Positions 13,311-34,660 of a stretch of 64,000 nt of DNA are shown in pieces. The translations under genes were made by a program, and so were the position numbers. Below the pieces are notes generated by a model, which was not told the DNA's origin, ran no database searches, and saw only the letters and a program-made list of their open reading frames with translations. This DNA comes from SAR92 clade bacterium H231. GTDB lineage: Bacteria > Pseudomonadota > Gammaproteobacteria > Pseudomonadales > Porticoccaceae. The stretch spans positions 558,001-622,000 of the forward strand of contig JAOALC010000003.1 of NCBI GenBank assembly GCA_025153775.1, given 5' to 3'. Every line of letters begins with the position of its first letter. Positions within the stretch are counted from its first letter, which is position 1.

Positions 13311-14144
13311 CTAGCCTGACTGTCTCTGTGCTGAGGTTTTTCTCTGGCTGCGCAGTATTATCCAGCTGGCAATCAGGATACCCAGGCTCAGGGTACCAAT
13401 AATAATTGTGGCCAAGGCATTGATGTCTGGGGTGACCCCCAGTTTAATTTTCGAAAATATCACCATGGGCAAGGTGCTGGCCCCAGCGCCAGAGGTAAAG
13501 CTGGCGATTACCAGATCATCCAGAGATAGTGTAAAAGCCAACAGCCAGCCCGAGATCATTGAAGGTGCAATCAGCGGCAGAGTAATATCAAAGGTTACCT
13601 GCATGGGTCGGCCGCCAAGATCCATGGCCGCCTCTTCAAGGGACTCATCCATACTGGCCAGCCGCGCCTGCACAATCACCGCAATGTAGGCCATAGCAAA
13701 GGTAATATGGGCGATGGTAATGGTGGTTGCTCCGCGACTGACAGGCCAGCCAATCAGTTGCTGCAGACTCACAAATAACAGCAGCAGAGACAGGCCGGTA
13801 ATCACCTCTGGCATTACCAGGGGAGCAGCTATCAGGCCGGTAAATAAAAACCGACCCCTAAACCTACGCATTCTGGTCAGTGCCAGCCCTGCCAATGTGC
13901 CGAGAATAGTGGCGAATGTGGCGCTGACGGCAGCGATTTTAAGACTGAGTAGGGCAGCGTTAATAATCTGCTCATTGTTCAGCAGGGCACTGTACCAGCG
14001 AGTAGAAAAGCCACCCCAAACTGTAGCCAGTGCCGAGTCATTAAATGAATAGGCCATCATTACCAGAATAGGCACATATAAAAAGGCAAACCCAAAGCAG
14101 AGTACTGACAGAATAAAGGTTGAGGGGCCTCTATGGCTGCTCAT
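13311..14144 (-). CDS. potC: Spermidine/putrescine ABC transporter permease PotC/PotI
   Basis: This is a 277-residue inner-membrane permease with six predicted helices. The EAA loop (EEAAMDLGGRPMQVTFDITLPL) contacts the ATPase. The segment LSLDDLVIASFTSGAGASTLP is characteristic of the PotC/PotI subunit. It is the last gene of a six-gene minus-strand operon. Its ATG overlaps the potB stop codon by one base (TAATG), implying translational coupling. With PotF, PotA and PotB it completes a polyamine importer. The downstream gene is convergent. Confidence 0.95.
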   Translation of the reverse strand: MSSHRGPSTFILSVLCFGFAFLYVPILVMMAYSFNDSALATVWGGFSTRWYSALLNNEQIINAALLSLKIAAVSATFATILGTLAGLALTRMRRFRGRFLFTGLIAAPLVMPEVITGLSLLLLFVSLQQLIGWPVSRGATTITIAHITFAMAYIAVIVQARLASMDESLEEAAMDLGGRPMQVTFDITLPLIAPSMISGWLLAFTLSLDDLVIASFTSGAGASTLPMVIFSKIKLGVTPDINALATIIIGTLSLGILIASWIILRSQRKTSAQRQSG

Positions 14145-15049
14145 TATGAGCGCTCCTTCTGGCTGCTCTGCAGCAACATAATGGGAACCACAATAATAAA
14201 CAGCAGCACTGTGGCCACTGCCGAGGCCAGCGGCCAGTCGCGGTTAATAAAGAATTCATCGTAGAGAGTGCGTCCTATCATCAATGAGTCTATGCCGCCG
14301 AGCAGCGAGGGGATAACAAATTCTCCCAGGGCGGGAATAAACACCAGCATGCTGCCAGCTATCACCCCGGGCATGGATAGGGGCAGTATAATATTAAAAA
14401 ACACCTGCCAGCGTCGGGCGCCCAAATCAGCGGCGGCATCCTGCAGATTGGTATCCATTTTTTCCAGCACGCTGTAGAGAGGCAAAACCATAAACGGGAT
14501 ATAGGTGTAGACAATGCCCAGATACACAGCGCCATCGGTATAGAGCATTTCAATGGGGGTGGTGATTAAGCCCATTTTCAATAGCAGCGAATTTATCGCA
14601 CCGGTTTTACCCAGCATTACAATCCAGGCATAGACCCGCAGTAGAAAGGAAGTCCAGAAGGGCAGAATAACCAGCATAAGCAGTATATTTCGCGTTCCAG
14701 GTTGGCACTTGGCAATGCCGTAGGCCATGGGGTAACCCAATAACAGACAGAGCACTGTGGAAATAGTGGCGATTTTTAATGACTTAAAATAGCTGATCCA
14801 GTAGAGATTGTCCTCGGTGATAAAGCGATAGTTATCCAGAGTGGCCAGCAGCCAGCTCTCGGCACCTGGGCTAAAGTCAAAAAAATTGGAGAACGGCGGC
14901 TGGGCTACAACCGGGTCGGCAAAACTAATTTTAAATACAATGGCAAAGGGGGCCAGAAAGAAAATAGCTAGCCACCAGTAGGGCAGGGATATCACCAGCC
15001 AGCGCCATAATTTATCTCCCAGTGGGATACTGTGATTGGCCTGGCTCAT
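14144..15049 (-). CDS. potB: Spermidine/putrescine ABC transporter permease PotB/PotH
   Basis: This is a 301-residue permease with six helices and an EAA loop (LQDAAADLGARRWQVFFNIILPL). The segment FIPALGEFVIPSLLGGIDSLM is typical of PotB/PotH. I chose the ATG at 15049 (MSQANHS), which overlaps the potA stop as ATGA. The longer frame would run 57 bases into potA. It forms the transmembrane channel with PotC. Confidence 0.95.
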   Translation of the reverse strand: MSQANHSIPLGDKLWRWLVISLPYWWLAIFFLAPFAIVFKISFADPVVAQPPFSNFFDFSPGAESWLLATLDNYRFITEDNLYWISYFKSLKIATISTVLCLLLGYPMAYGIAKCQPGTRNILLMLVILPFWTSFLLRVYAWIVMLGKTGAINSLLLKMGLITTPIEMLYTDGAVYLGIVYTYIPFMVLPLYSVLEKMDTNLQDAAADLGARRWQVFFNIILPLSMPGVIAGSMLVFIPALGEFVIPSLLGGIDSLMIGRTLYDEFFINRDWPLASAVATVLLFIIVVPIMLLQSSQKERS

Positions 15050-16230
15050 TCCGGTAGCACCACAGAGCAACTGGAATCCCAGGATAGATAGACCTGATCG
15101 TCCCATTCCAGAACCAGCTCTTTGGTGCGCTGAAAATTTTGTGCACTGACCTGAATCATACGACCAGAGTGGCTGCGCACTCTGTAGATAGAACGATTGC
15201 CATAGTAGGCTAAATCCTCAACTATACCGTTGGTAATGGTGAGATTTTTACCCCTGGGTTTTTTCTGGCTGATACTGAGCTTTTCTGGTCTCACACCAAT
15301 GGAAATAATATCCCCCTGGTTAAGCTGATGGCTGCAGTCTGCTTTTACCAGGGTGCCGGTCTTGTCGAGTGCCGCCTCTATAGTATGGGTGCAACTGTCC
15401 ACTTGCACGCTGCTGGTCACTGTGGCATCAAAGAGATTGATGGTGCCAAAGAAATCAGCCACAAAGCGATTGAGCGGAAATTCGTAGACTTCCAGTGGTG
15501 TGCCTATCTGCACAAAGCGTCCCGCATCCATAACTGCCACACGGGAGGACAGTGTCATGGCTTCCTCTTGATCATGGGTAACCACAATAAATGTGGTGCC
15601 CAGTTTGTGCTGGAGATTGATCAGTTCAAACTGAGTCTGCTCGCGGAGCTTCTTATCCAGTGCTGCCAGAGGTTCATCCAGCAGTAAAACCTTGGGTCGC
15701 TTTATCAGCGCCCGGGCCAGCGCGACTCGCTGACACTGGCCACCGGACAGTTGCTTTGGTTTGCGCGCGGCCAGATCTTGCAGTTGCACCAGCTCAAGCA
15801 TCTCCTGGACTCTGCTATTGATTTCAGCGTTGGGCAGGCGATCCTTTTTTAGGCCATAGGCAATGTTTTGCGCCACTGTCATATGGGGGAAAACCGCATA
15901 GGACTGGAACATCATATTGACCGGGCGATCGTAGGCAGGCAGGTCACTGATATCCACGCCATCGATAATAATTTGCCCGGCGCTGGGATTTTCAAAGCCA
16001 GCCAGCATGCGTAGCAATGTTGATTTGCCGCAGCCGGAGCCACCGAGAATAGTGAACAGCTCGCCCTGATAAATATCCAGACTGATACTGTCTACGGCGG
16101 TGAAGTCGTCAAATTCCTTACTCAGAGATTTAATCTGTATAAAGGGGGCAGCCTGAGGGTCCAGCCAGGGGGTCTCTGTAAAATCCGTTTCAGGCAGTTT
16201 TGGCGCTTCTTTATCAGTTGCTGCTGTCAT
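15046..16230 (-). CDS. potA: Polyamine ABC transporter ATP-binding protein PotA/PotG
   Basis: This is a 394-residue ATPase. The Walker A motif GGSGCGKST lies near residue 58. The signature LSGGQCQRVALARAL and Walker B VLLLDEPLAALD follow near residues 160-190. A TOBE regulatory domain occupies about 310-394, with the element GVRPEKLSIS. The length and TOBE domain match the PotA/PotG class that powers polyamine uptake. The gene is 20 bases after potF and overlaps potB by four bases. Confidence 0.96.
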   Translation of the reverse strand: MTAATDKEAPKLPETDFTETPWLDPQAAPFIQIKSLSKEFDDFTAVDSISLDIYQGELFTILGGSGCGKSTLLRMLAGFENPSAGQIIIDGVDISDLPAYDRPVNMMFQSYAVFPHMTVAQNIAYGLKKDRLPNAEINSRVQEMLELVQLQDLAARKPKQLSGGQCQRVALARALIKRPKVLLLDEPLAALDKKLREQTQFELINLQHKLGTTFIVVTHDQEEAMTLSSRVAVMDAGRFVQIGTPLEVYEFPLNRFVADFFGTINLFDATVTSSVQVDSCTHTIEAALDKTGTLVKADCSHQLNQGDIISIGVRPEKLSISQKKPRGKNLTITNGIVEDLAYYGNRSIYRVRSHSGRMIQVSAQNFQRTKELVLEWDDQVYLSWDSSCSVVLPE

Positions 16231-16250
16231 GGGTTGGGTCGCTTGTTTTG

Positions 16251-17405
16251 TTATAGGCCAGTTTTTATTTTCGTCCAGGTTCGCGAGCGTCTGCGCTCCA
16301 TTTTAGGCGTCAGTACTTCAGTGGTCTGCATTCTCTGTAACACTTGCTGATCTGGATAGATTGCAGTGTCCTTCGCTATGGATGGTTCCACAAAATTGAT
16401 GGCATCTTTGTTGGCATTGGCGTAACCAATATAGTTGGTGGACCTGGCAATCACTTCAGGGCGCAGCATATAGTTTAAAAACAGATAGGCATTGTTCCTG
16501 TGGGGTGCATCACTGGGGATATAAATATTATCAAACCAGATAACTGAGCCCTCTTTGGGAATGGTGTAAGCCAGATTGATATCTATGCCTGCCTCTGCGG
16601 CTCTGCCCGCTGCCACTCCGTAGTCTCCAGACCAACTCATGGCCATACACACCTCTTTACTGGGCAGGTCGAGCAGCATCTTGGTGGAGCTAAAGTATTT
16701 GATGTAGGGGCGAATGGATTTCACCAGCTGTTCTACTTCTGCCAACTGGTCGAGATCAACGCTATTGGCTGGGTAGCCCAGGTACATCATGGCCAGAGGG
16801 ATTACCGTTAATGGATCATCCAGCATAGAGACGCCACAGTCTGCAAATTTGGAGACCACTTCAGGGTCGAAGAACATGCGAATGCTATCTAGAGGGGCAT
16901 CCGGCATACGGGCTTTTATTTCGTCGACATTATAGGTAAAGCCAGTGGTGCCCCAGAAAAACGGGCTGCCCATTAGCCCGCTGCTGTATTGACGATCTAG
17001 AGTTTGCAGCAGGGTTGGTTCTAAATGGTGCCAGTTAGATAGGCGACTGGTATCCAGCGGATGAAGGATATTAATACCTTTAAAGCGGGCGGTAAATGAG
17101 GCTGCGTGCACCACAATATCGTAGCCGCTGCGACCGGTCAGCAATTTGGCATCGACCATTTCACTGGAATCATAGATATCGTAATTGACCTCTATGCCAT
17201 ATTCCTGCTCAAAGTCGACTAGCGTCTGGGGGTCTATATAGTCAGCCCAGTTATAGATATTGAGGCGCTTTTCGATATCATTATTTAATTGGATTGCGCT
17301 GTCTTGATCATTAGCCTGCCCATTCCACAGGAAAAATCCCAGTGCCGCTGCGCTGAATATAACAGGCAGAAAAACGCGGGCGGAATGGCGGCGACTATTG
17401 CCCAT
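16251..17405 (-). CDS. potF: Periplasmic polyamine-binding protein, PotF/PotD type
   Basis: This is a 384-residue extracellular solute-binding protein. The mature start RLNIYNWADYIDPQTLVDFE and the later YDIVVHAASF and FWGTTGFTYNVDEI are typical of PotF/PotD. W and D/E residues in these segments line the polyamine pocket. The N-terminus (MGNSRRHSARVFLPVIFSAA) gives an uncleaved or ordinary Sec signal with no lipobox. The ATG at 17405 lies seven bases after the stop of the acyl-CoA dehydrogenase gene; a longer frame would overlap that gene. Putrescine versus spermidine preference cannot be decided. Confidence 0.92.
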   Translation of the reverse strand: MGNSRRHSARVFLPVIFSAAALGFFLWNGQANDQDSAIQLNNDIEKRLNIYNWADYIDPQTLVDFEQEYGIEVNYDIYDSSEMVDAKLLTGRSGYDIVVHAASFTARFKGINILHPLDTSRLSNWHHLEPTLLQTLDRQYSSGLMGSPFFWGTTGFTYNVDEIKARMPDAPLDSIRMFFDPEVVSKFADCGVSMLDDPLTVIPLAMMYLGYPANSVDLDQLAEVEQLVKSIRPYIKYFSSTKMLLDLPSKEVCMAMSWSGDYGVAAGRAAEAGIDINLAYTIPKEGSVIWFDNIYIPSDAPHRNNAYLFLNYMLRPEVIARSTNYIGYANANKDAINFVEPSIAKDTAIYPDQQVLQRMQTTEVLTPKMERRRSRTWTKIKTGL

Positions 17406-17412
17406 AGAGAGG

Positions 17413-18573
17413 TTACATTTCCTTAAGTCCGCGCTTACGCAGTGCGTTGGCAATTACCATTCGCTGAATTTCACTGCTGCCCTCCCAGATTCTGTCTACT
17501 CGCACCTCGCGATAAAAACGCTCCACTGCATTGTCTCGGCGGTAGCCGCGACCACCCCATAGCTGCAGACAGCGATCGGCTACCCGGTTGGCCATCTCGG
17601 TGGCATAGAGTTTTACCATAGAGCACTGAGCGTGCTGAGATTTAAGATCATCGCCGCGATCATGGGCAGCAGCGGCCTCGTATACCATTAACTTAGCAGC
17701 CCAGAGTTCGGTCACACTGTCGGCCAGACTAAATTGGGTCGCCTGCTTGTCGATCAGGTAGTCCCCCTGAATCTTCCGCTGGCTGGCCCATTCTGTGGCT
17801 TCTTCAATCATGCGCGAGGCTGCGCCCAACATGCGAGCCGCTATGGTCAGTCGCTCATGGCGAAACCAACTGCGGCTGTAGTCCATACCTGCACCCTCAT
17901 CCCCTATGCGGTTTTTCTCTGGGACAAATACATTGTCGAATTTATAGGTGGGGTGATGGGAGGGGAAGGTGTGGGAGAATGCAGGATTTTCAATCATGCT
18001 AACCCCCTGGGCATCAATGTCGACAAAGAACAATGCGTCTTCGCCATTGTCGGTTTTGGCCTGCAGGAAAAAGAAATCTGCCAGATTAGCTGTGGTTACA
18101 AACCATTTTTCGCCACTGATACTATAACCACCCTCACAGGCAGAGGCCTTGGTATTGACCACTTCATGGGAGCCAGACTCAGCTTCTGTAATGGCGTAGC
18201 ACTCTCGCAGGCTGCCCTCCATTAGGGGCTGCAGAAATCTGTTAATTTGGTATTCGCTATGGGCGCAGGCCTCAAACATCCAGTGCTGGGCTTCCGGAAA
18301 ACACCAGCACAGGGCATTGGTGACTCGCCCCAGCTCTTCCCAGGCAGCCAACTGATCCACCATGCTCATACCTAGGCCGCCATGTTCAGTTGGGGCATCC
18401 ATTTTTGATAGACCCAGAGCAATCGCATTACGCTGCATTTTTTCGCTGACTTCTTGCGGGATAACGCCGTTGTTCAGTTCAGCCTCCACTTCCCAGGGAA
18501 TCAGATCCTGCTCAACAAACTGTCTAACTTGCTGTTGCCACTTTCTGGTGCTCTGGCTGTGCTGAATATCCAT
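17413..18573 (-). CDS. Acyl-CoA dehydrogenase family protein
   Basis: This 386-residue FAD enzyme of the acyl-CoA dehydrogenase fold oxidises an acyl-CoA at the alpha-beta carbons. Landmarks are YAITEAESGSHEVVNTKAS and GEKWFVTTANLADFFF in the middle domain. The C-terminal LWGGRGYRRDNAVERFYREV and RIWEGSSEIQRMVIAN bracket the flavin and the catalytic base region. It is the second gene of the tetR-led operon, directly before the Pot genes. It may act on the CoA ester made by the NDP-forming ligase encoded across the divergent promoter. That link is an inference. Confidence 0.88.
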   Translation of the reverse strand: MDIQHSQSTRKWQQQVRQFVEQDLIPWEVEAELNNGVIPQEVSEKMQRNAIALGLSKMDAPTEHGGLGMSMVDQLAAWEELGRVTNALCWCFPEAQHWMFEACAHSEYQINRFLQPLMEGSLRECYAITEAESGSHEVVNTKASACEGGYSISGEKWFVTTANLADFFFLQAKTDNGEDALFFVDIDAQGVSMIENPAFSHTFPSHHPTYKFDNVFVPEKNRIGDEGAGMDYSRSWFRHERLTIAARMLGAASRMIEEATEWASQRKIQGDYLIDKQATQFSLADSVTELWAAKLMVYEAAAAHDRGDDLKSQHAQCSMVKLYATEMANRVADRCLQLWGGRGYRRDNAVERFYREVRVDRIWEGSSEIQRMVIANALRKRGLKEM

Positions 18574-18593: not shown

Positions 18594-19226
18594 TTAAGCC
18601 TGAAAATGATCCGGGAACTGGGTAGCCAGATAATGCATGGCCACATTGTATGCCTGCTTGGGTTTTAAGCCCTTGGGGGTGACCAGTAAGTCCAGCCACA
18701 GACCATCGGCCAGTGCGGTATAGCAGACGCAAGTGAGTTCCGGGTCTACATTAGCATAGTTGCCCTCGGTCTTTAACTGGGCAAATAGCTGGGTCAGGTT
18801 GCTGGCGATATCGGCGATATAGTCGGCGCAAATTGACAGATAGGTGGGGCGTGATTTGGTTTCACCCCAAAAGGCAAACCACACAGCCAGTTTGTTGCGG
18901 TCAATAATTGTGCGGCTGAAATCATAGCGGATATGGGCCGTTATTTTTTCAGCAGTGGTTTTTTTGGGGTCATGGAATATGTTGTCCAGCCCGCTGCGGT
19001 ATTCGTCGGAAATATAACGCAGAGTCTCGATAAGTAGTTTTTCTTTGCTTTGAAAATGCAGGTTTACAATGCCCTGGCTAAGACCTGCCTCTGTGGTGAT
19101 GTCGGCCATGGTCACCGCGGATAAACCCTTTTGGGCTATGCACTTAATGGTCGCCATAATCAACTGCTTCCGCCGGGCCTGGGCCGATACTGAGCGCTTT
19201 GAAGCTGAGTGTTTTGCTGCTGCCAT
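18594..19226 (-). CDS. TetR-family regulator, BetI-like
   Basis: This 210-residue repressor has an N-terminal helix-turn-helix (AQKGLSAVTMADITTEAGLS then GIVNLHFQSKEKLL). The C-terminal ligand domain is of BetI type (NKLAVWFAFWGETKSRPTYL and LADGLWLDLLV). BetI relatives sense choline or related cations, which suits a gene heading a polyamine-uptake operon. It is divergent from the plus-strand catabolic genes. A perfect 8-bp inverted repeat at 19336-19355 between them is the probable operator. Its DNA-binding part resembles that of the TetR-GNAT fusion at 33 kb, suggesting related regulators in one locus. Confidence 0.88.
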   Translation of the reverse strand: MAAAKHSASKRSVSAQARRKQLIMATIKCIAQKGLSAVTMADITTEAGLSQGIVNLHFQSKEKLLIETLRYISDEYRSGLDNIFHDPKKTTAEKITAHIRYDFSRTIIDRNKLAVWFAFWGETKSRPTYLSICADYIADIASNLTQLFAQLKTEGNYANVDPELTCVCYTALADGLWLDLLVTPKGLKPKQAYNVAMHYLATQFPDHFQA

Positions 19227-19468: not shown

Positions 19469-21088
19469 GTGACCAACAAATACGACGCTATTATTATCGG
19501 CGCGGGACATAATGGCCTGACCAACGGGGCCTATCTGGCTAAGGCGGGCCTCAATGTACTGGTGCTGGAGAAAAACTCCTATATAGGTGGAGCCACGGTC
19601 AGCCGTGAGCTTTACACGGATTGGAAGTACTCCAACTGCTCCTATGTCTGCAGCCTGTTGCGACCAGAAATTATCCGCGATCTGGAATTACCTCGCCATG
19701 GATTGCAGGTGGTGCCCTACGGTGGCGGTGTGACCTTTAAGGAAAACGGCGATTATTTTGGCAACCATGCAGATCATGAGCGCCTGCTGAGAGAAGTGGC
19801 CCGTCACTCCAAGCGCGATGCCAGTGCCTATGAGCGCTACGAAGCCGATGTGATGAAGCAAACTAGATTGATTCGTCCGTTTTTAATGCGTACCCCTCCA
19901 GATCCCACCTCCCTAAAGCCCAGAGATTTAAAGGAGCTGGCGGTGCTGGCCAAGTCTTTTGGCAGCATGGGAGAAGAGGGATTGGCCGATACCATACGCT
20001 TCTGGACCATGAGTATTGGTGACTTTCTTGACGAATACTTTGAGTCCGATGTTATCAAGTCTCATTTGGCCGGCAGTGGCATTATTGGCACGGCTCTGGG
20101 TGTTTACTCGCCGGGCACCGCCTATGTTCTATTGCACCATTATATGGGTGATGTGGACGGTTCTGTGGGTGCCTGGGGATTTGCCCGCGGCGGCATGGGC
20201 TCTGTGGCAGCGGCACTGTCTGCGTCATTTCAGTCCTTTGGCGGCACTATCCAGTGCGATGCTGAGGTAGATCAGATTATTATTAAGAACGGCAAAGCCA
20301 AAGGCGTTGCTCTGGCCAATGGCAATGAGCTTTACGCTGATATTGTAGTCTCAAACCTGGATCCCAAACGCACCTTCCTAAAGATTATGGACGAGGGAGA
20401 CCTGCCCAGTGATGTAGTGACCAAGGCCAAGAATTTTAAAATTCGCGGTTCCTCCGGCAAGCTCAATATTGCCCTGGACGGCCTGCCAACCTTTACCGGC
20501 CTGCCCAAAGATAGCCCGCTCTGCCTGGGTGAGAAACACTTTATTGATTCCCTGCCTCGAATGGAGCGCGCCTACGATGACTGGAAGGCGGGTACCTGGT
20601 CCAAGGACCCCTATGTGGACATGTTAATTCCCACCCAGATCGACCCCACCATGGCGCCTCCGGGCAAGCATATGATGTCGGTATTTGTGCAGTACGCGCC
20701 GCCTAAGGTCAATGGTGAAGACTGGACTGCGGAAGACAAGGCGGGCTTTGAAAAGACCGTTATCGATCAAATCAGTAACTACAGTCCCGACTTTAAAGAT
20801 TTAATTCTGCACTGTGAAACCAGAACACCCAAGGATATTGAGGATGAAGTAGGCCTTACCGAGGGTAATATCTTTATGGGCGAGCTGACCTTTGACCAGC
20901 TGCTGTTTAACCGCCCATTCCCTGGATATGCTCAGTATCGTGGCCCGGTAAAAGGCATGTATATGTGTAGCTCGGGCAGCCACCCGGGCGGTGGTGTTAT
21001 GGCTGCACCAGGTGCCAACGCAGCGCGAGAAATACTGATGGACTTAAAGCTCAATAACACTGTACCTGGAGGTTATGACGATGATTAA
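19469..21088 (+). CDS. PYROXD2-like FAD oxidoreductase, first of a tandem pair
   Basis: This is a 539-residue flavoprotein starting at GTG (19469) after GGAGCGAG. It has an N-terminal Rossmann motif (IIIGAGHNGLTNGAYLAKAG) and a C-terminal FAD motif (SSGSHPGGGVMAAPGANAA). It is related to the flavoproteins at 3979-5571 and 21081-22658. It overlaps the next gene, so the two are likely translated together and may form a heteromer. The family also includes carotenoid desaturases and amine-oxidase-like enzymes. In this context an oxidation of an amine or N-methyl substrate is plausible but unproven. Confidence 0.85.
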   Translation: MTNKYDAIIIGAGHNGLTNGAYLAKAGLNVLVLEKNSYIGGATVSRELYTDWKYSNCSYVCSLLRPEIIRDLELPRHGLQVVPYGGGVTFKENGDYFGNHADHERLLREVARHSKRDASAYERYEADVMKQTRLIRPFLMRTPPDPTSLKPRDLKELAVLAKSFGSMGEEGLADTIRFWTMSIGDFLDEYFESDVIKSHLAGSGIIGTALGVYSPGTAYVLLHHYMGDVDGSVGAWGFARGGMGSVAAALSASFQSFGGTIQCDAEVDQIIIKNGKAKGVALANGNELYADIVVSNLDPKRTFLKIMDEGDLPSDVVTKAKNFKIRGSSGKLNIALDGLPTFTGLPKDSPLCLGEKHFIDSLPRMERAYDDWKAGTWSKDPYVDMLIPTQIDPTMAPPGKHMMSVFVQYAPPKVNGEDWTAEDKAGFEKTVIDQISNYSPDFKDLILHCETRTPKDIEDEVGLTEGNIFMGELTFDQLLFNRPFPGYAQYRGPVKGMYMCSSGSHPGGGVMAAPGANAAREILMDLKLNNTVPGGYDDD

Positions 21089-25973: not shown

Positions 25974-27353
25974 ATGAGTATTGCCAGCCATAAGGAACTG
26001 CAAGCATTCTTAAAACAGTATCCTGAGATCACCATGCTTGAACTGCTGATGCCCGATTTAAATGGTATTTTGCGCTGCAAGCGTATTCCGGCAAGCGAGT
26101 TTGATAGCTTTTTAAATCATGGAGTTAAGGGGCCGGAATCCACAGTTCTGCTCAATGTATTGGGGGAGTTCTGCCAAGAGCTGGATTTTGTGATGGCCGA
26201 GGGTGACCCGGACAAGCTAATCTTGCCCGTGGCCAACAGTCTGGCGCCTATTACCTGGCTAAAGTCTGATACAGCCCAGATACTGGCTACTTTCGCCCAA
26301 TTGGATGGTGATCCGTCAGAGTATGACTGTCGCAATGCGCTGATTAATGCTCTTAAGCCGCTCTACTCTATGGGCTTAAAGCCAGTGGTCGCTACTGAGC
26401 TTGAGTTTTATCTGGTGGAGGCAGGCCCTGATGGGCTGCCCAAGCCAAAGTTAGGCAAGGTACCTGGTACCAGCACGGATCAGGTGGGTACTCAGTACGC
26501 TATGCCCGAAGATCTCTGGGATCAGGACGACTTTCTTGAAGATGTGCGGCGGGCCTGCGAGGCTCAGAACGTACCTATGACCACAGTGCACTCGGAATTT
26601 TCTCCGGGGCAGTATGAGATCAATCTGCACCATGTGGATGATCCGGTTGCCGCCTGTGATCACGGCATTCTGTTAAAGCGGATTGTCAAAGGCGTTGCTC
26701 GCCAGCATGGTTTGGCGGCCACCTTTATGGCCAAGCCCTTTACCGAACTTACTGGCAGTGGCCTGCATATCCATTGCAGCCTTTACAATGCCCAGGGAGA
26801 AAATATCTTCGCTGATCTAGATTCTGATCAGACGCCGGCTATCTCGGATAATCTGCGCTATGCGATTGGTGGCCTGGCCGAGACCATGGCTGAATCCATG
26901 GCTATTTTTGCTCCTAATGCCAATTCCTACAGGCGGCTTATTCCCGGCAATTTTGCGCCGCTGGCTCCCAACTGGGGCTACAACCATAGAGATGTCTCTC
27001 TGCGTATACCGGTTTCCGAGCACAGGGACCGCCGGGTTGAGCATCGGGTTGCCGGCGCTGACGCCAATCCCTACCTGGTAATGGCCGCCTTGGCCGCAGG
27101 TATTCACCATGGATTGACCCATCAGTGCGACCCAGACGAGATGATTGAAGAGGGTGAGGAGATGATCGAGGAGATTATTCTGCCGCGACTTTGGCCTCAG
27201 GCTCTGGATAAGTTTGATATGGCTGCAGTGTTGCCTAACTATTTAGGGGCCAAGTACTGCCGTATGTACGGCACGGTTAAGCGCGGGGAATGCGAGCAGT
27301 TTTCTGCCCAGGTTTCTAATATAGACTACAACTGGTATCTGCGATCAATGTAG
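25974..27353 (+). CDS. puuA: Gamma-glutamylpolyamine synthetase, glutamine-synthetase family
   Basis: This is a 459-residue glutamine-synthetase-fold enzyme. ATP- and metal-site segments are readable: VATELEFYLVEAG, HSEFSPGQYEINLHH, LTGSGLHIHCSL and the arginine-rich NYRHD-like RDVSLRIP. The open N-terminus (ELLMPDLNGILRCKRIP) and length fit PuuA/GlnA-like proteins rather than housekeeping GlnA. It should ligate glutamate to putrescine or another amine, the first Puu step. PuuB and PuuD homologues in the same locus support this. The gene starts 48 bases after the ligase stop with GAGGGGA before the ATG. Confidence 0.88.
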   Translation: MSIASHKELQAFLKQYPEITMLELLMPDLNGILRCKRIPASEFDSFLNHGVKGPESTVLLNVLGEFCQELDFVMAEGDPDKLILPVANSLAPITWLKSDTAQILATFAQLDGDPSEYDCRNALINALKPLYSMGLKPVVATELEFYLVEAGPDGLPKPKLGKVPGTSTDQVGTQYAMPEDLWDQDDFLEDVRRACEAQNVPMTTVHSEFSPGQYEINLHHVDDPVAACDHGILLKRIVKGVARQHGLAATFMAKPFTELTGSGLHIHCSLYNAQGENIFADLDSDQTPAISDNLRYAIGGLAETMAESMAIFAPNANSYRRLIPGNFAPLAPNWGYNHRDVSLRIPVSEHRDRRVEHRVAGADANPYLVMAALAAGIHHGLTHQCDPDEMIEEGEEMIEEIILPRLWPQALDKFDMAAVLPNYLGAKYCRMYGTVKRGECEQFSAQVSNIDYNWYLRSM

Positions 27354-27480: not shown

Positions 27481-28734
27481 ATGAAAATTATTGCTACCGA
27501 TATCCTTGATAATAGAGAGAAAATGACGGCAATGGCCAGTGCCCAGCTAGAAAAGCCGGGCTTTGCCATAAACCCCTATTTTTACCGCTCCCATGTCACC
27601 TATGAAGCGGAGCTAGAGCATATTGTTTTTAAGAGCTGGCTGTATGCCGGGCATATCAGTCAGGTCGCTAAAAATGGTGACTACTTCTTGTTCGATGTAG
27701 GCGAGGACTCGATCATTATCAGCCGCGACAATAAGGGCCAGATCGGTGCTATGCACAATATCTGTCGCCACCGCGGAGCCAGGGTTTGCGAAGAGCCCAG
27801 CGGTAATCGCAAAGCCTTTATCTGCCCCTATCACGGCTGGGCCTATGGCAATGATGGCCATCTAAAATCTGCCCGGGAAATGGACCAACTGGAGGGCTTT
27901 AAGTGCGAGGACTATGCCCTTAAGAAAGTGCGCTTTGTAGTCTTTCAGGGCATGATTTTTATTAACTGCGACCCGAATGCTCCGGACTTTATAGCGCCGC
28001 TGGAGAATATCAGCAGACAGCTGGGCGCCTACGATCTCGAGAATGCCAAGGTGGCTGAGCGCAAGACCTACAGAATTAATGCCAACTGGAAGCTGGTGCT
28101 GGAGAACTATCTGGAGTGCTATCACTGCTCCAGTTCCCATCGCCAGTACGCCAAGCTGCATACTCTGGAAGCGCCCTCCGAAAAAGTAAAACCGATCAAT
28201 CAAGCCATGTGGGCCAGAGCTGAGGAGCTTACCGGTGTGGCGGGTATTGCTGAGGAATACTATGGCTACTACAACGATGCCACCGCCTTTGGTGCCTGTT
28301 CCTATACCAGTCGCTACGCACTCTACGAAGGCTTTAAAACAGGTAGTCGCGATGGCCAGCCCGTCGCGCCATTAATGGGCAATATGCAAGGCTATGATGG
28401 GGGCGCCGGTGATTTTCAGATGGGTCCTCTAACCTTTATGCTCAACTACCCAGATCACTGTGTGCTCTATCGCTTTATTCCTCGAAATCTGACTGAAACC
28501 GATATGGAAGTAGTCTGGTATGTCAATGGAGATGCAGTTGAGGGCGTGGATTATGAGGTGGAAAAAGTCACCTGGCTCTGGCACCACACCAGCCTTGAGG
28601 ATGAATATATTATTCTGCGTAACAATGAGGGGGTGAACTCCAGGTTCTTTGAGCCAGGGCCCTATCATCCGGAATACGAAGCTACATTGATGGAATTTAT
28701 CAGCTGGTACCTGAAAGCGCTGTCATCAGCTTAA
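27481..28734 (+). CDS. Rieske-type non-haem iron oxygenase, alpha subunit
   Basis: This 417-residue oxygenase has a Rieske 2Fe-2S site C95-X-H97-X17-C115-X2-H118 (ICRHRGARV, CPYHGW). The mononuclear iron site has H215 and H220 in ENYLECYHCSSSH, with E212 near the bridging-acid position. The class includes glycine-betaine, choline, carnitine and stachydrine oxygenases, which remove N-methyl or N-alkyl groups, as well as aromatic dioxygenases. The setting among amine genes favours an N-dealkylating role. No ferredoxin reductase partner is encoded in the window. A 127-base gap with its own possible leader precedes it. Confidence 0.88.
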   Translation: MKIIATDILDNREKMTAMASAQLEKPGFAINPYFYRSHVTYEAELEHIVFKSWLYAGHISQVAKNGDYFLFDVGEDSIIISRDNKGQIGAMHNICRHRGARVCEEPSGNRKAFICPYHGWAYGNDGHLKSAREMDQLEGFKCEDYALKKVRFVVFQGMIFINCDPNAPDFIAPLENISRQLGAYDLENAKVAERKTYRINANWKLVLENYLECYHCSSSHRQYAKLHTLEAPSEKVKPINQAMWARAEELTGVAGIAEEYYGYYNDATAFGACSYTSRYALYEGFKTGSRDGQPVAPLMGNMQGYDGGAGDFQMGPLTFMLNYPDHCVLYRFIPRNLTETDMEVVWYVNGDAVEGVDYEVEKVTWLWHHTSLEDEYIILRNNEGVNSRFFEPGPYHPEYEATLMEFISWYLKALSSA

Positions 28735-28767: not shown

Positions 28768-30051
28768 ATGTTTTTAAAAGCCACAGCAGATACCAGAGAG
28801 CACGCAAAGTCCTATTACGCTGCATCCGCCAATTGGCAGACTGACTATCCTGAGCTGGAAGGGGATATAGAGGTTGATGTGGTAATTGTGGGTGGCGGCT
28901 TTAGTGGTGTTGCCACCGCCCTAGAGTTGGGGGAGCTAGGCTACAAGGTGGCCCTGTTAGAGGCCAATCGCATTGGCTGGGGCGCCTCTGGCCGCAATGG
29001 TGGGCAGATTATTGGAGGCTATGGCCAAAACCCCAGTGCATTTAAAGCCAATATCGGCAGCGAAGGTGTTGAGGTCGTGGAAAATATGGGAGTGGAGTGC
29101 GTTGAAATTATCAAGCAGCGCATCGAGAAATATAAGATCGACTGCGACCTAAAATGGGGTTACTGCGAAGTGGGACTAAGAAAGCGCCACTTAAAGGACT
29201 ATAGGGAATGGGCAGACAAAGACCCGAAGATTCAACTGCTCGATCGCGATGAGCTTAAACAGTATATAAATTCAGATGTTTATCTGGGCGGCTATTACCG
29301 GGAAGATTGGGGCCATATTCAGCCGCTTAATCTCTGTATTGGCGAAGCCAAGGTGGCAGAGTCTCTGGGTGCGTTGATTTTTGAACAGACCAGGGTCACC
29401 GGTATTACCTATGGCGAAAATCCCGCCGTACAGACCGAAAAAGGCTCAGTGCGTGCCAATCATGTGATCCTCTGCGGCAATGCCTATATGGGCAATCTGG
29501 TGCCCTATCTGGATGCTCGAGTACTGCCTGCCACCAGCTGTGTTATAGGCACAGAACCATTAACTGAAGAGCAGCTACAGCAAACTATGGTGCGCGATGT
29601 AGCTGTTTGTGACTCGCGAACGGCGTTGGATTACTATCGGCTTTCAGCGGATAAAAGACTGCTATTTGGGGGGCTCTCCAATTATTCTGGCCTCGACCCC
29701 ACCAATGCCACAGAGATTATGCGCGCAAAAATGCTCAAGGTATTCCCCAGCCTCAAAGAGGTAAAGATCGACTACAGCTGGTCTGGCCGAATGGGTATTA
29801 GCCTGCGTCGTATGCCCCAAATTGGCCGTATCAAAGATAGCAATGTGCTGTATATCAGTGGCTATTCTGGTCATGGGGTGGCGCCCACCCATATGACGGG
29901 ACGTATTCTTGCCGAGGCGGTGGATGGAAATACCCAGCGCTTGGATATTATGAATAAAATGTTCCATCTGCCCTGGCCCGGAGGCAAATTACTGCGCAGG
30001 CCCGCTATGGCCATTGGCATGATGTACTATAAAACCCTCGACCGGTTTTAG
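28768..30051 (+). CDS. puuB: Gamma-glutamylputrescine oxidase-like FAD enzyme
   Basis: This 427-residue protein belongs to the DAO/PuuB family of FAD oxidases. The N-terminus SYYAASANWQTDYP closely resembles that of E. coli PuuB. It is followed by a Rossmann motif (VVIVGGGFSGVATALELGEL) and by LEANRIGWGASGRNGGQI, the flavin-contact region. The C-terminal segment ISGYSGHGVAPTHMTGRILA closes the FAD site. It should oxidise the gamma-glutamyl amine made by PuuA, releasing an aldehyde and hydrogen peroxide. The partner aldehyde dehydrogenase PuuC is not present in this window. Confidence 0.9.
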   Translation: MFLKATADTREHAKSYYAASANWQTDYPELEGDIEVDVVIVGGGFSGVATALELGELGYKVALLEANRIGWGASGRNGGQIIGGYGQNPSAFKANIGSEGVEVVENMGVECVEIIKQRIEKYKIDCDLKWGYCEVGLRKRHLKDYREWADKDPKIQLLDRDELKQYINSDVYLGGYYREDWGHIQPLNLCIGEAKVAESLGALIFEQTRVTGITYGENPAVQTEKGSVRANHVILCGNAYMGNLVPYLDARVLPATSCVIGTEPLTEEQLQQTMVRDVAVCDSRTALDYYRLSADKRLLFGGLSNYSGLDPTNATEIMRAKMLKVFPSLKEVKIDYSWSGRMGISLRRMPQIGRIKDSNVLYISGYSGHGVAPTHMTGRILAEAVDGNTQRLDIMNKMFHLPWPGGKLLRRPAMAIGMMYYKTLDRF

Positions 30052-30136
30052 TTTGAGCCAGCGCCCAGTATGCAGCCCTGGAATAGACCGCTTTTTCTAT
30101 AGAGAGATCTCCTTTTAAGCTATAAAGGCAAATAAA

Positions 30137-31522
30137 GTGAAAAGTGATAGCTACAGAGATAAGTACAATCAGCACCTCCTGCACCCCTGGGGTGATCTGT
30201 CGGCACTGGGCGAAGATGACTCCAGCTCGGTAATTGTAAGGGGCGAGGGCGCCTATATCTTCGATGCCGAGGGTAATCGACTATTGGACGGTCCAGCAGG
30301 CATGTGGTGCATGCAGGCAGGCTATGGTCGTCGTGAGATTGCCGATGCAGTGGCCGAGCAGATGATGACCCTAAGCTATGCCACTACCTTCTCATTGATT
30401 AATAATCGCGAGGTGGAGCTGGCTCAGCGCATTGCTGCCCAGACCCCAGGTGACCTCAATCGTATTTACTTTACCACTGGTGGCTCCACTGCTGTAGACG
30501 CGGCCCTGCGCCTCTGCCAGTTGGCTAGCAATATCCAGGGTGCGCCTCAGCGCAAACAGATTCTTACCCGAGAAAAAGCCTACCATGGCAGTACCTATCT
30601 CTCCGCCTCAGTCACCGGCAAAGAGCGGGATAAAACCGCTATGGATACGATTCGCGAAGGTGTGCATTTTTTATCAGCTCCCTGCCATTACTACTATCCT
30701 CAGTTTGAGACCGAAGCAGCATTCTGTGATTTTCTGATTGCTGAGCTTGAGGAGAAAATTCTTGAGATAGGCGCGGAAAATATTATGTGCTTTATCGCCG
30801 AGCCAATTCTGGCCAGTGGCGGGGTGATTGTGCCCCCGGCAGACTATCATCAGCGCTGCTGGCAGATGGTCAAAGGCTATGGCATTACCTATATAGCCGA
30901 TGAGGTGGTCACCGGGTTTGGTCGTCTGGGCCACTGGTTTGCTTCGGAAAAGGTATTTGGCATAGTGCCGGATATTATTATCTTCGCCAAAGGCGTGACC
31001 TCAGGTTATATCCCCATGGGTGGCTATGCGGTGTCAGATCAGTTTATGGCAGAGATCAGTGGCGACAATGCCGATGGCTGTCTGTACTCCAATGGCTATA
31101 CCTGGTCTGGTAATCCGGTGGCCTGCGCTGCCGCTCTGGCCAGCTGGGATATTCTGGAAAAGGAAAATCTGCTGCAGAATGTGCTGGAAGTGGGGCCCTA
31201 TTTTCAAGAGCAATTGCGAACCCTGGCAGAAAACCCACTGGTGGGCAATGTGCGCGGCACAGGGTTAATGGCTGCAGTGGAGATGACTATACAGGGCCTA
31301 GATGAAGAGGACCTGCTGGAAAAAGACTACGCGATCGGCGAGATGGTAGATAGCCACTGTCAGCGACTGGGGCTGCTGGTGCGGCCCTTTATCAATATCT
31401 GTATTATTTCACCGCCGCTAATTATTACCAGAGCCCAGGTGGATGAGTTGGTGACGGCTCTGCGCGAGGGTTTGCGGCTGACTCTGGAGGATCTGCGCGA
31501 GCAGGGTATCTGGGTCGACTAA
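30137..31522 (+). CDS. Class III aminotransferase, putrescine/omega-amino acid type
   Basis: This 461-residue PLP enzyme has the class III signature YIADEVVTGFGRLGHWFASE, with the aspartate that holds the pyridine nitrogen. The Schiff-base lysine lies in IIFAKGVTSGYIPMGG. It resembles SpuC-type putrescine:pyruvate aminotransferases and related omega-transaminases. It would convert a diamine or omega-amino acid to an aldehyde. The start is GTG at 30137. It gives the locus a second amine-removal route besides glutamylation. Confidence 0.88.
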   Translation: MKSDSYRDKYNQHLLHPWGDLSALGEDDSSSVIVRGEGAYIFDAEGNRLLDGPAGMWCMQAGYGRREIADAVAEQMMTLSYATTFSLINNREVELAQRIAAQTPGDLNRIYFTTGGSTAVDAALRLCQLASNIQGAPQRKQILTREKAYHGSTYLSASVTGKERDKTAMDTIREGVHFLSAPCHYYYPQFETEAAFCDFLIAELEEKILEIGAENIMCFIAEPILASGGVIVPPADYHQRCWQMVKGYGITYIADEVVTGFGRLGHWFASEKVFGIVPDIIIFAKGVTSGYIPMGGYAVSDQFMAEISGDNADGCLYSNGYTWSGNPVACAAALASWDILEKENLLQNVLEVGPYFQEQLRTLAENPLVGNVRGTGLMAAVEMTIQGLDEEDLLEKDYAIGEMVDSHCQRLGLLVRPFINICIISPPLIITRAQVDELVTALREGLRLTLEDLREQGIWVD

Positions 31523-31564
31523 AAAATAAACTGGGCGTCAGCCCAGGTGATAGAGAGATGAGAT

Positions 31565-32485
31565 ATGTCCGATAACAAGCCGATTGATAGCTACTCCATG
31601 TTTGCCAATGTCCAGAGTTACCTGGGCCTGCCTCTATCCCGCGATATAGATAGGGCAGATTTAGTGGTGCTGGGTATTCCCTATGATTTGGCGACTACCG
31701 GCCGGGCTGGAACCCGCCACGGCCCCCAGGGTGTGCGACTGGCATCGGGCAATCTGCGCTGGGAAGAGAAGCGCTGGCCCTGGACCTTTAACGCTATGGA
31801 TCGGTTAAATGTGGTTGACTATGGGGACCTGGAATTTGCGCCAGGTGAGTCTCAGTCGATGATCGATACTGTGGTCAACACTGTAGGCGGCATTCATGCC
31901 AAGGGTAAAAAAACCCTGAGTATTGGTGGTGATCATTTTGTCACTCTGCCTCTGCTCAGGGCGATACATCAGCAACGTGGCCCTCTAGCTCTGGTGCATT
32001 TTGATGCCCATACAGATACTTACAAAGAGAGCTCGGAGTTTGATCATGGGGGCATGTTTTATTTTGCGCCCCAGGAGGGTTTGATTGATCCAGCCCATTC
32101 TATACAACTGGGGATTCGTACCGAATATAACCCAGAGGATCATCAGTTTGAGGTGATTGACGCAGCGGCGGTCAATGATATGGCTGCTGCGGATATTGTC
32201 GCTGCCATTAAGCGGCGAGTTGGTGATATGCCGGTGTATCTGACCTTTGATATTGACTGTCTGGACCCGGCCTATGCGCCCGGTACTGGAACCCCGGTGG
32301 CCGGTGGTATTACCAGTGACAAAGCATTAAAAATTATTCGCGGCCTGGTGGGCTTAAATCTGGTAGGCGCAGATGTGGTGGAGGTGGCGCCCTCCTATGA
32401 TCATGCCGAAATTACGTCTCTGGCCGCCGCGACCCTGGGTCTGGAGCTGATTTATCTGATGGCCTCCCTCGCTGGGCAGGAGTAG
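31565..32485 (+). CDS. speB: Agmatinase, ureohydrolase family
   Basis: This 306-residue enzyme has all manganese ligands of the arginase fold: H124 (GGDHF), D147, H149 and D151 (DAHTD), and D229 and D231 (FDIDCLDP). The segment FDHGGMFYFAPQEGLID is closest to agmatinase, which makes putrescine and urea. Guanidinobutyrase and other ureohydrolases share most of this pattern, so the exact guanidino substrate is uncertain. It follows the aminotransferase gene in the catabolic series, feeding putrescine into it. Confidence 0.9.
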   Translation: MSDNKPIDSYSMFANVQSYLGLPLSRDIDRADLVVLGIPYDLATTGRAGTRHGPQGVRLASGNLRWEEKRWPWTFNAMDRLNVVDYGDLEFAPGESQSMIDTVVNTVGGIHAKGKKTLSIGGDHFVTLPLLRAIHQQRGPLALVHFDAHTDTYKESSEFDHGGMFYFAPQEGLIDPAHSIQLGIRTEYNPEDHQFEVIDAAAVNDMAAADIVAAIKRRVGDMPVYLTFDIDCLDPAYAPGTGTPVAGGITSDKALKIIRGLVGLNLVGADVVEVAPSYDHAEITSLAAATLGLELIYLMASLAGQE

Positions 32486-32489
32486 AGAT

Positions 32490-33599
32490 CTATAGCGCTA
32501 GAGAGTACTTGTAGAATTCACTATCTCGCCTGTAGCCAAGAGCCTCATAGAGCCCCTGAGCATTGATATTATCTATGGCGGTCTCCAGATCAATACGCGA
32601 TGCACCGCTTTCCAGGGCCATGGTTTTGGCCCGATTCATCAGAGCCTTGCCCACGCCTTGATCGCGCTTGCTGCTGTCTACAAAGAGATCATAGAGCACC
32701 CAGATCGCCGAGGCCTCGACACTGCAAAATGTTGAGTACAGCTGGGTAAAGCCAATGGCCTTTTTATCTGCACTTTCATTATCCCAGGCGATAAAAATAG
32801 TCGAGCTCTGGGTCTGTATGCGTTGTTTAATATACTGGTGGGCCAGGCTCAGATCAGCTTCTTCTTCATAAAACTGACGGTAGAGATCGAATAGCACTGC
32901 CAGCTGCTCCAGATCATTCAGGCTGGCTTGAGTTATATGCACTGGACTGGTTTCAGGGTCGGTGCTGGCACTATTTTGCTCAGGCATCTGATAGCACCAG
33001 GGAAATATGCTGGCGAGAAAGCTCTGGCATACCTGGCGCGCATCGTCGCGGTCATAGTCTTCACCGGCAAAGAGGATTTCTTTCCACACTTCATCGGTAA
33101 TTCCTGAGATGGCATTGGCAATGGCCCGCGCATTGATCTGCGCCTGCTTATTGGCTTGATTAATAATCTGCTCACAGAGATTGAGAATCAACTTAAAGTT
33201 TTGTTTATCCAGGTTGCCCCTGATGCGCTGATAGTCCTCGCGGCCGCGACTCTCTGAGTCAAAGGCGTGCCATACAGCCATTTTGCGGTGCTCGGTAATC
33301 TCTGGGTCGAGAGAGGCGTCAATAATGGCCGCTAGGCGTTTGGCTGGGTCTGGCCCCGCCTGCTGAAGCGCCTGAGCCACGCCGCGATCAAACTCTTCAG
33401 AGACAAAATTAAGAGTTTCCAACAGCAATGTCTCTTTGCTATCAAAGTAAAAATTTACCGTGCCCGCGGTTAATCCGGCAATAGAGCTGATTTTAGCCAG
33501 AGTTAATTTAGACAGGCCAAACTCGGCAATCGCGGTAATAGTGGCATCAATTAAAAGTCGCCGTCGCTCTTGATGTATAGCTGGATTGGTAGTCGACAT
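32490..33599 (-). CDS. TetR-GNAT fusion regulator
   Basis: This 369-residue protein joins two domains. Residues about 1-195 form a BetI-like TetR regulator, with an HTH at about 30-55 (SKLTLAKISSIAGLTAGTVN then FYFDSKETLLLETL) and a ligand domain. A Ser/Thr/Pro linker spans about 195-215. Residues about 215-369 form a GNAT acetyltransferase, with acetyl-CoA loop RDQGVGKALMNRAK and end motif NINAQGLYEALGYRRDSEFY. It may sense and acetylate a polyamine. It is divergent from puuD and convergent with speB, five bases away. GTTTAAA repeats just upstream of its ATG are candidate operators. Confidence 0.85.
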   Translation of the reverse strand: MSTTNPAIHQERRRLLIDATITAIAEFGLSKLTLAKISSIAGLTAGTVNFYFDSKETLLLETLNFVSEEFDRGVAQALQQAGPDPAKRLAAIIDASLDPEITEHRKMAVWHAFDSESRGREDYQRIRGNLDKQNFKLILNLCEQIINQANKQAQINARAIANAISGITDEVWKEILFAGEDYDRDDARQVCQSFLASIFPWCYQMPEQNSASTDPETSPVHITQASLNDLEQLAVLFDLYRQFYEEEADLSLAHQYIKQRIQTQSSTIFIAWDNESADKKAIGFTQLYSTFCSVEASAIWVLYDLFVDSSKRDQGVGKALMNRAKTMALESGASRIDLETAIDNINAQGLYEALGYRRDSEFYKYSLAL

Positions 33600-33620
33600 G
33601 GGGGCAGTTATGCTCCTGTT

Positions 33621-33665
33621 TTTAAACTGGTTTAAATGCCTGTTTAATTACTTGTACGTTTAAAT
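33621..33665. promoter_or_regulatory. GTTTAAA half-site cluster, candidate operator
   Basis: Positions 33621-33636 form the perfect palindrome TTTAAAC-TG-GTTTAAA. Two more half-sites, GTTTAAT (33642-33648) and GTTTAAA (33658-33664), follow with 12- and 16-base steps. They lie 22-65 bases upstream of the TetR-GNAT start codon. They are the best candidates for autoregulatory binding in the 296-base region shared with puuD. No strong -35/-10 pair was found. Confidence 0.5.
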
Positions 33666-33895
33666 AATGGTGCTTACCATAGACCCTGACAAGTTTTATC
33701 ACAATAGGGTTTGATTAATCGGAGGCTCCCTCGGCCTGAAAATTATCTGATCTATTCGGTAGAGAAAAACCGCAGGCAGCTAAGGGCCTATTTCGCCATG
33801 GCCTGCGCTATACCCAGGCTATAAGAGCACAGCGATGATGTGCTTGTATTTTAGTAACAGATAGGTCTAATAAGGACCATTAGGAGAGATTAACT

Positions 33896-34660
33896 GTGAG
33901 CCACTCAGCAGCTATGCCATTGGTAGCGGTAACCGCAGATCGCGCCTTAAATGGTGCTCATCAGTACCATTCTGCCGGAGAAAAATATTTAACCGCGGTG
34001 ATCGAGGGTGCTGGCTGTATGCCTGTGATACTTCCGGCGCTCGGTGATCAGGGGAGTATCGACAGTATTCTAAACCCTATCCATGGTGTGCTACTAACCG
34101 GCGGCTATAGCAATATTGAGCCCCACCATTATGGCCAGCGGCCGGCTCCCGGCGACGATAGCCGGGATGCCCAGCGCGATAAAACCAATCTGGCATTAAT
34201 ACCCCAGATTATTGCTGCCGGAATACCTGTATTAGGTATTTGCCGCGGTCTGCAAGAACTCAATGTGGCCATGGGTGGCACATTGCATCAGCGGGTCTAT
34301 GAAATTGACGGCATGCTAGATCATCGTGAGGATAAAACTGCTGCGGTGGAGGTTCAGTATGGGCTGGCCCATGCCGTTAATGTGCAAGCTAATGGGCTGT
34401 TAGCCTCTATAACGAGTGATACTAAGCCAATGGTTAACTCGGTGCATGGGCAGGGTATTGATCAGTTGGCTGAGGGTCTGACTATTGAAGCAGTGGCAGA
34501 GGATGGTCTGGTTGAAGCCGTGTCGGTCACAGCGGCCAAGCAATTTGCCCTGGCGGTGCAATGGCATCCGGAATGGCAGGTGCGCAATAATGATTTCTAT
34601 AGAGCAATTTTTGCAGCCTTTGGCGATGCCTGTCGGGACTATTGTGCAGAGAAGAGTTAA
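33896..34660 (+). CDS. puuD: Gamma-glutamyl-GABA hydrolase, class I glutamine amidotransferase fold
   Basis: This 254-residue hydrolase has the catalytic C116 in VLGICRGLQELNVAMGG and H224/E226 in AVQWHPEW. The oxyanion region is VLLTGGYSNIEPHHY. Its length equals that of E. coli PuuD. It frees GABA and glutamate from gamma-glutamyl-GABA, the last step of the pathway begun by PuuA. It starts with GTG after AGGAGA. It is divergent from the TetR-GNAT gene and may be controlled by it. Confidence 0.92.
   Translation: MSHSAAMPLVAVTADRALNGAHQYHSAGEKYLTAVIEGAGCMPVILPALGDQGSIDSILNPIHGVLLTGGYSNIEPHHYGQRPAPGDDSRDAQRDKTNLALIPQIIAAGIPVLGICRGLQELNVAMGGTLHQRVYEIDGMLDHREDKTAAVEVQYGLAHAVNVQANGLLASITSDTKPMVNSVHGQGIDQLAEGLTIEAVAEDGLVEAVSVTAAKQFALAVQWHPEWQVRNNDFYRAIFAAFGDACRDYCAEKS

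Follow-up and report, generated by a model that had tools for sequence, protein, structure and literature searches.

A stretch of 64,000 nucleotides from SAR92 clade bacterium H231 (contig JAOALC010000003.1, positions 558,001–622,000; hereafter the window), contained in a host genome of 2.93 Mb in 7 contigs, carries three adjacent genes, flavA, flavB and a GcvT-like gene, which form the near-invariant core of a modular locus whose uptake and breakdown genes vary from species to species. The three products may constitute a tetrahydrofolate (THF)-linked oxidative N-demethylase that helps to break down an N-methylated amine, probably a dication; we give this reading about an even chance. In the open-access (PMC) literature, we recognised no description of the flavA-flavB-GcvT triad. 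A sequence-only reading of the region 13311–34660 had presented it as a Puu locus with additions. The open reading frames (ORFs) listed there lie where they had been placed, and their families were borne out by Pfam and NCBIfam, but the relationship turned out to be the reverse: the core is conserved, and only some relatives have Puu-like genes beside it (a PuuA-like gene in 15 of 40 loci).

The flavA-flavB-GcvT unit

The core consists of the following genes.

19469–21088, plus strand: flavA, CrtI/PYROXD2-type flavoprotein, the most conserved core subunit
21075–22658, plus strand: flavB, second CrtI/PYROXD2-type flavoprotein, 35% identical to flavA
22655–23836, plus strand: GcvT-like folate enzyme, with the C-terminal part of trimethylamine N-oxide (TMAO) demethylase as its nearest solved relative

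As had been noted from the sequence, the first four plus-strand genes of the locus overlap, by 14 bp (21088/21075), 4 bp (22658/22655) and 1 bp (23836/23836), and this coupling is conserved at other loci. A scan of contigs yielded at least 589 flavA relatives, the best 80 of which were kept and correspond to 79 loci, the basis of the counts of core genes; having been chosen as the top flavA matches, they over-represent close relatives. At an identity threshold of 38%, flavB follows flavA in 71 of the 72 loci whose right flank measures 1.5 kb or more, and the GcvT-like gene is present in 63 of the 64 whose right flank measures 3.5 kb or more. On the other side, a gene for a BetI-like TetR regulator, usually facing the core, was found in 51/75 loci whose left flank measures 1.3 kb or more. 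flavA and flavB overlap or lie no more than 20 bp apart in 79 of the 80 loci counted, with a median gap of −14 bp (5 of 85 were dropped: L064, L093, L094 and L119, with no separate flavB match, and L121, at −62 bp). The median flavB-GcvT gap is −4 bp (within 20 bp in 56/74 loci, outlier L078 dropped), and the gap between the GcvT-like and coenzyme A (CoA) ligase genes is within 20 bp in 18/22 (L039 and L155, in which the two are not adjacent, were dropped). In L108 and L061/L106, the core, or the flavA-flavB pair, is duplicated within one locus.

The 79 loci span Porticoccaceae, Halieaceae, OM182, Pseudohongiella, Woeseiaceae, Kiloniella, Parvularculaceae, Mesorhizobium, Phyllobacterium and others, so the core unit is present in both Gamma- and Alphaproteobacteria, rhizobia included. 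Among the matches listed, the closest named relatives of flavA are those of three Porticoccaceae and one Cellvibrionales metagenome-assembled genome (94–96% identical). When 369 genomes of the class were searched at E ≤ 1e-70, GcvT-like orthologues were found in six, the host's own genome counted, and in all four other genomes with enough DNA (L036–L039) flavA and flavB lie beside the GcvT-like gene. In a sample of the phylum, flavA orthologues of at least 800 bits occur in 11 of 398 genomes, again with the own genome counted; the next matches score at most 528.5 bits and are paralogue-like. One of these is encoded in the window itself, ∼14 kb from the core (3979–5637, minus strand): a third CrtI/PYROXD2-type flavoprotein that is CrtO-like and a paralogue of flavA (468.1 bits in the flavA profile search), among whose scanned neighbours there is no GcvT gene.

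On plasmids, flavA was found at 60–65% identity in 7 records, and paralogues under 42% in 14 more. Each of the four plasmid regions that were opened (Parasedimentitalea, Fuscovulum, Rhizobium SL42 and Shinella) holds TetR, flavA, flavB and GcvT genes together with between one and four Rieske genes, a Pot-type ABC system and an aminotransferase gene, which in Fuscovulum sits between TetR and flavA. The plasmid records name the core proteins only 'NAD(P)/FAD-dependent oxidoreductase' and 'aminomethyltransferase family protein'.

Families were assigned with Pfam and NCBIfam, and the equivalog cut-offs of the latter served as the criterion of membership. The GcvT-like protein matches PF01571 with 197.2 bits, and its residues D105, D106, G107, T108, E201 and R237 are each kept in 95% or more of 77 sequences. 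Folate is presumably bound by the DD, GYE and R columns, which align with solved T-proteins (in the relative from L117) and with TMAO demethylase. Both flavoproteins retain the FAD dinucleotide motif and are CrtI/CrtO-like; the DAO model (PF01266) covers only ∼40 of their N-terminal residues. For flavA, neither the CrtO cut-off (279.2 bits against 1000) nor that of the CrtI family (104.3 against 238.1) was reached. The predicted fold of flavA resembles CrtI-type desaturases, which are the closest matches of its structure model, followed by renalase and by putrescine, protoporphyrinogen, nicotine and monoamine oxidases; such a search cannot separate an amine oxidase from a desaturase. DAO-type demethylases are not among the structural matches listed for flavA, an absence of no evidential weight.

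The core might alternatively oxidise or desaturate a carbon skeleton, by C–C or C–N dehydrogenation of the kind known for CrtI-type enzymes; transfer of a methylene or methyl group by the GcvT-like protein would then be a separate step, outside any shared complex. We consider this alternative rather unlikely, since the near-universal coupling of the three genes, with their overlaps, argues for one machine, and the Group V-type Rieske partners described below point to N-methyl chemistry.

Uptake and breakdown genes around the unit

The remaining genes of the locus extend just beyond 13311–34660, from the 2-oxoglutarate (2OG)-oxygenase-like gene at 12729 to the end of the amidohydrolase gene at 36207.

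12729–13289, plus strand: aspartyl/asparaginyl hydroxylase-like (PF05118; 2OG-oxygenase-like), adjoining the transporter, with matches in 16/94 locus entries
13311–14144, minus strand: Pot-type ABC permease (PotI/PotC-like; Pfam/NCBIfam)
14144–15106, minus strand: Pot-type ABC permease (PotH/PotB-like; Pfam/NCBIfam)
15046–16230, minus strand: PotA-subfamily ABC ATPase (TIGR01187, 398.6 bits, cut-off 355.6)
16251–17453, minus strand: PotF/SpuD-like solute-binding protein (SBP), from NCBIfam and alignment to PotF; the real start probably lies downstream of the listed TTG
17413–18573, minus strand: acyl-CoA dehydrogenase (ACAD; Pfam/NCBIfam), co-occurring with the CoA ligase across loci
18594–19226, minus strand: BetI-like TetR regulator (Pfam/NCBIfam), divergent from the core
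23836–25926, plus strand: NDP-forming acyl-CoA ligase, nearest solved relative DddX
25974–27353, plus strand: glutamine-synthetase-like gamma-glutamyl-amine ligase (PuuA-like), under the PuuA cut-off
27481–28734, plus strand: Rieske oxygenase (GbcA-like) with the Group V motif ECYHC...H
28768–30051, plus strand: DAO-family flavoprotein (PuuB-like; Pfam)
30137–31522, plus strand: class III aminotransferase PRK07036 (635.1 bits, cut-off 618)
31565–32485, plus strand: agmatinase/ureohydrolase (TIGR01230, 276.9 bits, cut-off 174.3)
32490–33599, minus strand: BetI-like TetR domain fused to a GNAT acetyltransferase domain (Pfam/NCBIfam)
33896–34660, plus strand: PuuD-like peptidase C26, under the PuuD cut-off
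34642–36207, plus strand: amidohydrolase, overlapping the PuuD-like gene

Modules were counted in 40 loci with 6.5 kb to the left and 9.5 kb to the right, and presence was called at a threshold of 38% identity (family-specific thresholds were used for aminotransferase co-occurrence). Nine of these loci are from Mesorhizobium, with a layout shared by L114 and L120, and P values calculated on the set, which ignore relatedness and multiple testing, are descriptive only. TetR is present in 32 loci, potA in 26, the Rieske gene and the aminotransferase in 22 each, ACAD, CoA ligase and SBP in 16 each, the PuuA-like gene in 15, the PuuB-like gene in 12 and a second type of aminotransferase in 10. The two aminotransferase types, both class III-like and about 24–29% identical to each other, are mutually exclusive (22 loci with the first, 10 with the second, none with both and 8 with neither). 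The absence of co-conservation in relatives had been named beforehand as the finding that would speak against a functional association, and the genes are co-conserved.

In the window, ACAD and CoA ligase lie on opposite strands, one on either side of the core; 15 loci have both, 2 have one of them and 23 have neither. The two travel together, in line with the earlier suggestion that the carbon chain leaves as a CoA ester. Close to its C-terminus, the ACAD carries IWEGS, presumably the site of the family's catalytic Glu; a stricter preset pattern matched 0/28 sequences. In the CoA ligase, for which DddX is the best PDB match, H256 (phosphohistidine; His292 of DddX) and the Trp equivalent to Trp391 of DddX are kept in 26/26 relatives. 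HMMER pairs Glu432 of DddX with a Ser of the window ligase, whose own Glu lies one column off and is kept in 5/26 relatives (assessed by eye). Glu432 is the proposed lyase base of DddX according to eLife 64045; as it is not conserved in the CoA ligase family, a DddX-like lyase function was rejected, and C–heteroatom elimination is unsupported. The reviews accompanying the DddX paper (PMC8163506) hold that conservation of the His and Trp is not strong evidence of function.

Alternatively, this could be a plain putrescine/agmatine (Puu) locus, with the flavoprotein, GcvT and Rieske genes as unrelated neighbours, and PuuA-, PuuB- and PuuD-like genes, an aminotransferase, an agmatinase and a Pot transporter are indeed all present. 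Cut-offs were reached by the agmatinase, the PotA subfamily and the aminotransferase (scores listed above). However, the PuuA-like (NF045547, 220.4 bits against 650) and PuuD-like proteins (NF008471, 202.5 against 266) fall under theirs, as do PotF (325.8 against 636), PotG (458.3 against 613), PotH (369.6 against 489) and PotI (337.4 against 476). The PuuA, PuuD and PotFGHI labels are therefore given by resemblance. The PuuB-like protein is a member of the DAO family in Pfam, and no PuuB model is among the best 25 of its 36 NCBIfam matches. In agreement with the sequence-only reading, neither an aldehyde dehydrogenase (PuuC) nor a Rieske reductase was found among the genes scanned in 13311–36207. 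The agmatinase was found in 3/40 loci, most flanks stopping short of its window position; in close relatives, it and the PuuD-like gene seem to be kept further downstream at matching distances, the match between contig and locus being inferred. Against a plain Puu locus, the run NDP ligase-PuuA-Rieske-PuuB-aminotransferase is kept in L043, L045, L046, L047 and L049, and where PuuA-like genes are missing, the core still comes with aminotransferase and Pot genes. We regard the plain Puu reading as improbable.

Further genes were observed beside the core in individual relatives. The Parasedimentitalea and Shinella plasmid clusters add a FadH/OYE-type flavoenzyme (679 and 678 aa). In L038 (13230–18139), a PuuC-like aldehyde dehydrogenase under its cut-off (545.9 against 850) and an acrylyl-CoA reductase over its cut-off (487.8 against 440) lie beside the cluster; aldehyde dehydrogenases of this type occur at 5/40 loci (L076 is the same locus as L038). 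L102 has a methylenetetrahydrofolate reductase-family gene (135–1064) near the core, with two DAO flavoproteins. A 'dimethylsulfonioproprionate lyase family protein' is encoded directly after the Pot-type transporter of Fuscovulum (L160, 24647–25498). The TetR-GNAT protein has matches at 9/79 loci, and the fusion itself was seen in the window copy. Between 6765 and 13289, the window encodes a TonB receptor, a TPR-sulfotransferase and the PF05118 hydroxylase-like protein, which are matched close to the core in 8, 15 and 16, respectively, of 94 partly overlapping locus entries; a possible role is that of an outer-membrane uptake or modification module. FolD (11550–12410, minus strand) was rejected as a dedicated folate partner, as it is the sole PF02882 gene over the cut-off in the genome and is unmatched at other loci.

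Proposed pathway and substrate class

Dimethylglycine dehydrogenase (DMGDH) and sarcosine oxidase combine a flavoprotein with a THF domain of the GcvT type, and the GcvT domains of these enzymes are among the PDB matches of the GcvT-like subunit. This pairing is one basis for proposing a THF-linked N-demethylase. The others are the Group V Rieske partners and BetI-like regulators, which point to a quaternary or methylated nitrogen, and the Pot-type importers and aminotransferases, which point to a second, primary amino group. For complex formation, chemistry, order of steps, regulation and substrate class, we infer the following scheme. The amine would be brought in by the Pot-type ABC importer, and the Rieske oxygenase would take the first methyl off a quaternary nitrogen, leaving the next ones to flavA, flavB and the GcvT-like protein, which may form one three-subunit complex. 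In it, oxidation of the N-methyl group by the two flavoproteins would give an iminium, or else formaldehyde that stays within the complex, and methylene-THF would arise as the GcvT-like subunit hands the carbon over to THF. The earlier proposal, in which the methyl group is oxidised and passed to folate, remains the best reading of the core. The primary amine end would be removed by the aminotransferase, in the window also through gamma-glutamylation by the PuuA/PuuB/PuuD-like enzymes; the acid product would be loaded on CoA and dehydrogenated, the CoA genes being an optional carbon-chain route, and the pathway would be regulated by the BetI-like TetR protein.

The N-methylated half of the suggestion that the substrate is an N-methylated or guanidino-type polyamine has gained ground. 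Window-type Rieske proteins carry the motif E-C-x-H-C-x3-H (ECYHC in the window) in 36/36 sequences, the plasmid clusters have one to four Rieske genes, and two of four add the FadH/OYE-type enzyme; the guanidino-type half is weak, given the agmatinase count. According to PMC10952381, some members of the quaternary-ammonium Group V have a Cys pair (C-x-x-C at the mononuclear iron), and a bridging Glu is known from CntA; the motif combines the two.

Another candidate substrate is a betaine or other zwitterion (carnitine-, trimethyllysine-, stachydrine- or homarine-like), which would be fully demethylated, then deaminated and activated with CoA. The best matches of the Rieske protein are GbcA among NCBIfam models (NF058607, 272.7 bits, under the cut-off of 670) and 4qup/3vca in the PDB, which we take to be the stachydrine demethylase Stc2; the regulators are BetI-like, and the ACAD has a below-cut-off match to crotonobetainyl-CoA dehydrogenase (151 bits against 540). 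On the other hand, the acidic positions of the SBP in W-x-D-Y, W-x-G-D and W-x-D suit a dication better than a carboxylate. These positions and a Tyr, aligned with PotF and presumably amine-binding residues of the ligand site, are kept in 15/15 sequences. A betaine-like substrate therefore seems to us possible though unlikely. On the homarine operon, a citing paper states only that Mgd takes part.

Several observations weigh against a demethylase of dicationic amines. CrtI-type flavoproteins do many things besides amine oxidation. On the short contig of L035, a divergent GcvT-like gene precedes a partial flavA (order GcvT-flavA), L094 has flavA without flavB, and the locus counts are not independent because the loci are related to each other. 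There is no conserved folate-pathway gene at the locus. The window-type Rieske gene occurs in only 22/40 loci, and of eight other plasmid Rieske proteins two have the Group V Cys-pair motif and six lack it (a simple Rieske-cluster pattern matched 3/8). Over the genome, PF00970 gave one gene, which reads as NqrF and was rejected as a dedicated Rieske reductase, and no other reductase; PF00111 matched at five positions, including a long frame with a listed ORF of 562 aa, which presumably ends in a reductase-like part and adjoins a 4-hydroxybenzoate-hydroxylase-like gene. At the Glu-Glu columns of PotF, the SBP has Glu in 0/15 sequences, so its ligand may not be a plain diamine, and the SBPs of three plasmid relatives are only ∼23% identical to that of the window (45% in Fuscovulum).

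A more speculative possibility, which we see as a long shot, is that the locus dismantles N-methylated oligo-propylamines, known as silica polyamines from diatoms and other algae, one unit at a time. The aminotransferase and an aldehyde dehydrogenase would convert the terminal aminopropyl group to an acid, CoA ligase and ACAD would cut off a C3 unit as acryloyl-CoA or 3-oxopropionyl-CoA, and flavAB-GcvT with the Rieske oxygenase would demethylate the nitrogen thereby exposed, ready for another round. The acrylyl-CoA reductase of L038 and the L038-type aldehyde dehydrogenases fit this idea; the missing lyase Glu and the occurrence in rhizobia weaken it. If true, algal silica polyamines would feed into central carbon by a new route.

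Methylated amines are an important part of marine dissolved organic nitrogen, according to the abstract of PMC13390433. If the N-demethylase proposal is correct, the unit in marine Gammaproteobacteria (Porticoccaceae, Halieaceae, Woeseiaceae and OM182) and rhizobia would be an unrecognised class of N-demethylase, and the core genes could mark methylated-amine use. The proposal is directly testable, as the unit is held by named strains (Mesorhizobium loti DSM 2626, Kiloniella laminariae DSM 19542 and HTCC2148).

Comparison with known systems

The core shares the GcvT-type THF domain (PF01571) with DMGDH, heterotetrameric sarcosine oxidase and 4-methylaminobutyrate oxidase (MABO), the last of which we count among flavoprotein-GcvT demethylases. 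However, the flavoproteins of these enzymes are DAO-type and often fused, whereas the core has two separate CrtI/PYROXD2-type flavoproteins and a stand-alone GcvT-like protein. Among solved structures, TMAO demethylase (Tdm) comes closest to the GcvT subunit (170.9 bits), but its C-terminal part alone matches, the score against NF053776 is 256.8 bits with a cut-off of 1100, and Tdm is not known to have a flavoprotein partner. With the Group V Rieske oxygenases Stc2, GbcA and CntA, the window protein has the E-C-x-H-C-x3-H motif in common; it differs in falling under the GbcA cut-off and in having no dedicated reductase beside its gene. The CoA ligase resembles the ATP-dependent dimethylsulfoniopropionate lyase DddX in the phosphohistidine and Trp391 equivalents and differs at Glu432. 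In the case of the Puu pathway and PotFGHI of E. coli, the enzyme superfamilies and the transporter type are alike, but the window genes score under the cut-offs, lack PuuC and are optional additions around another core.

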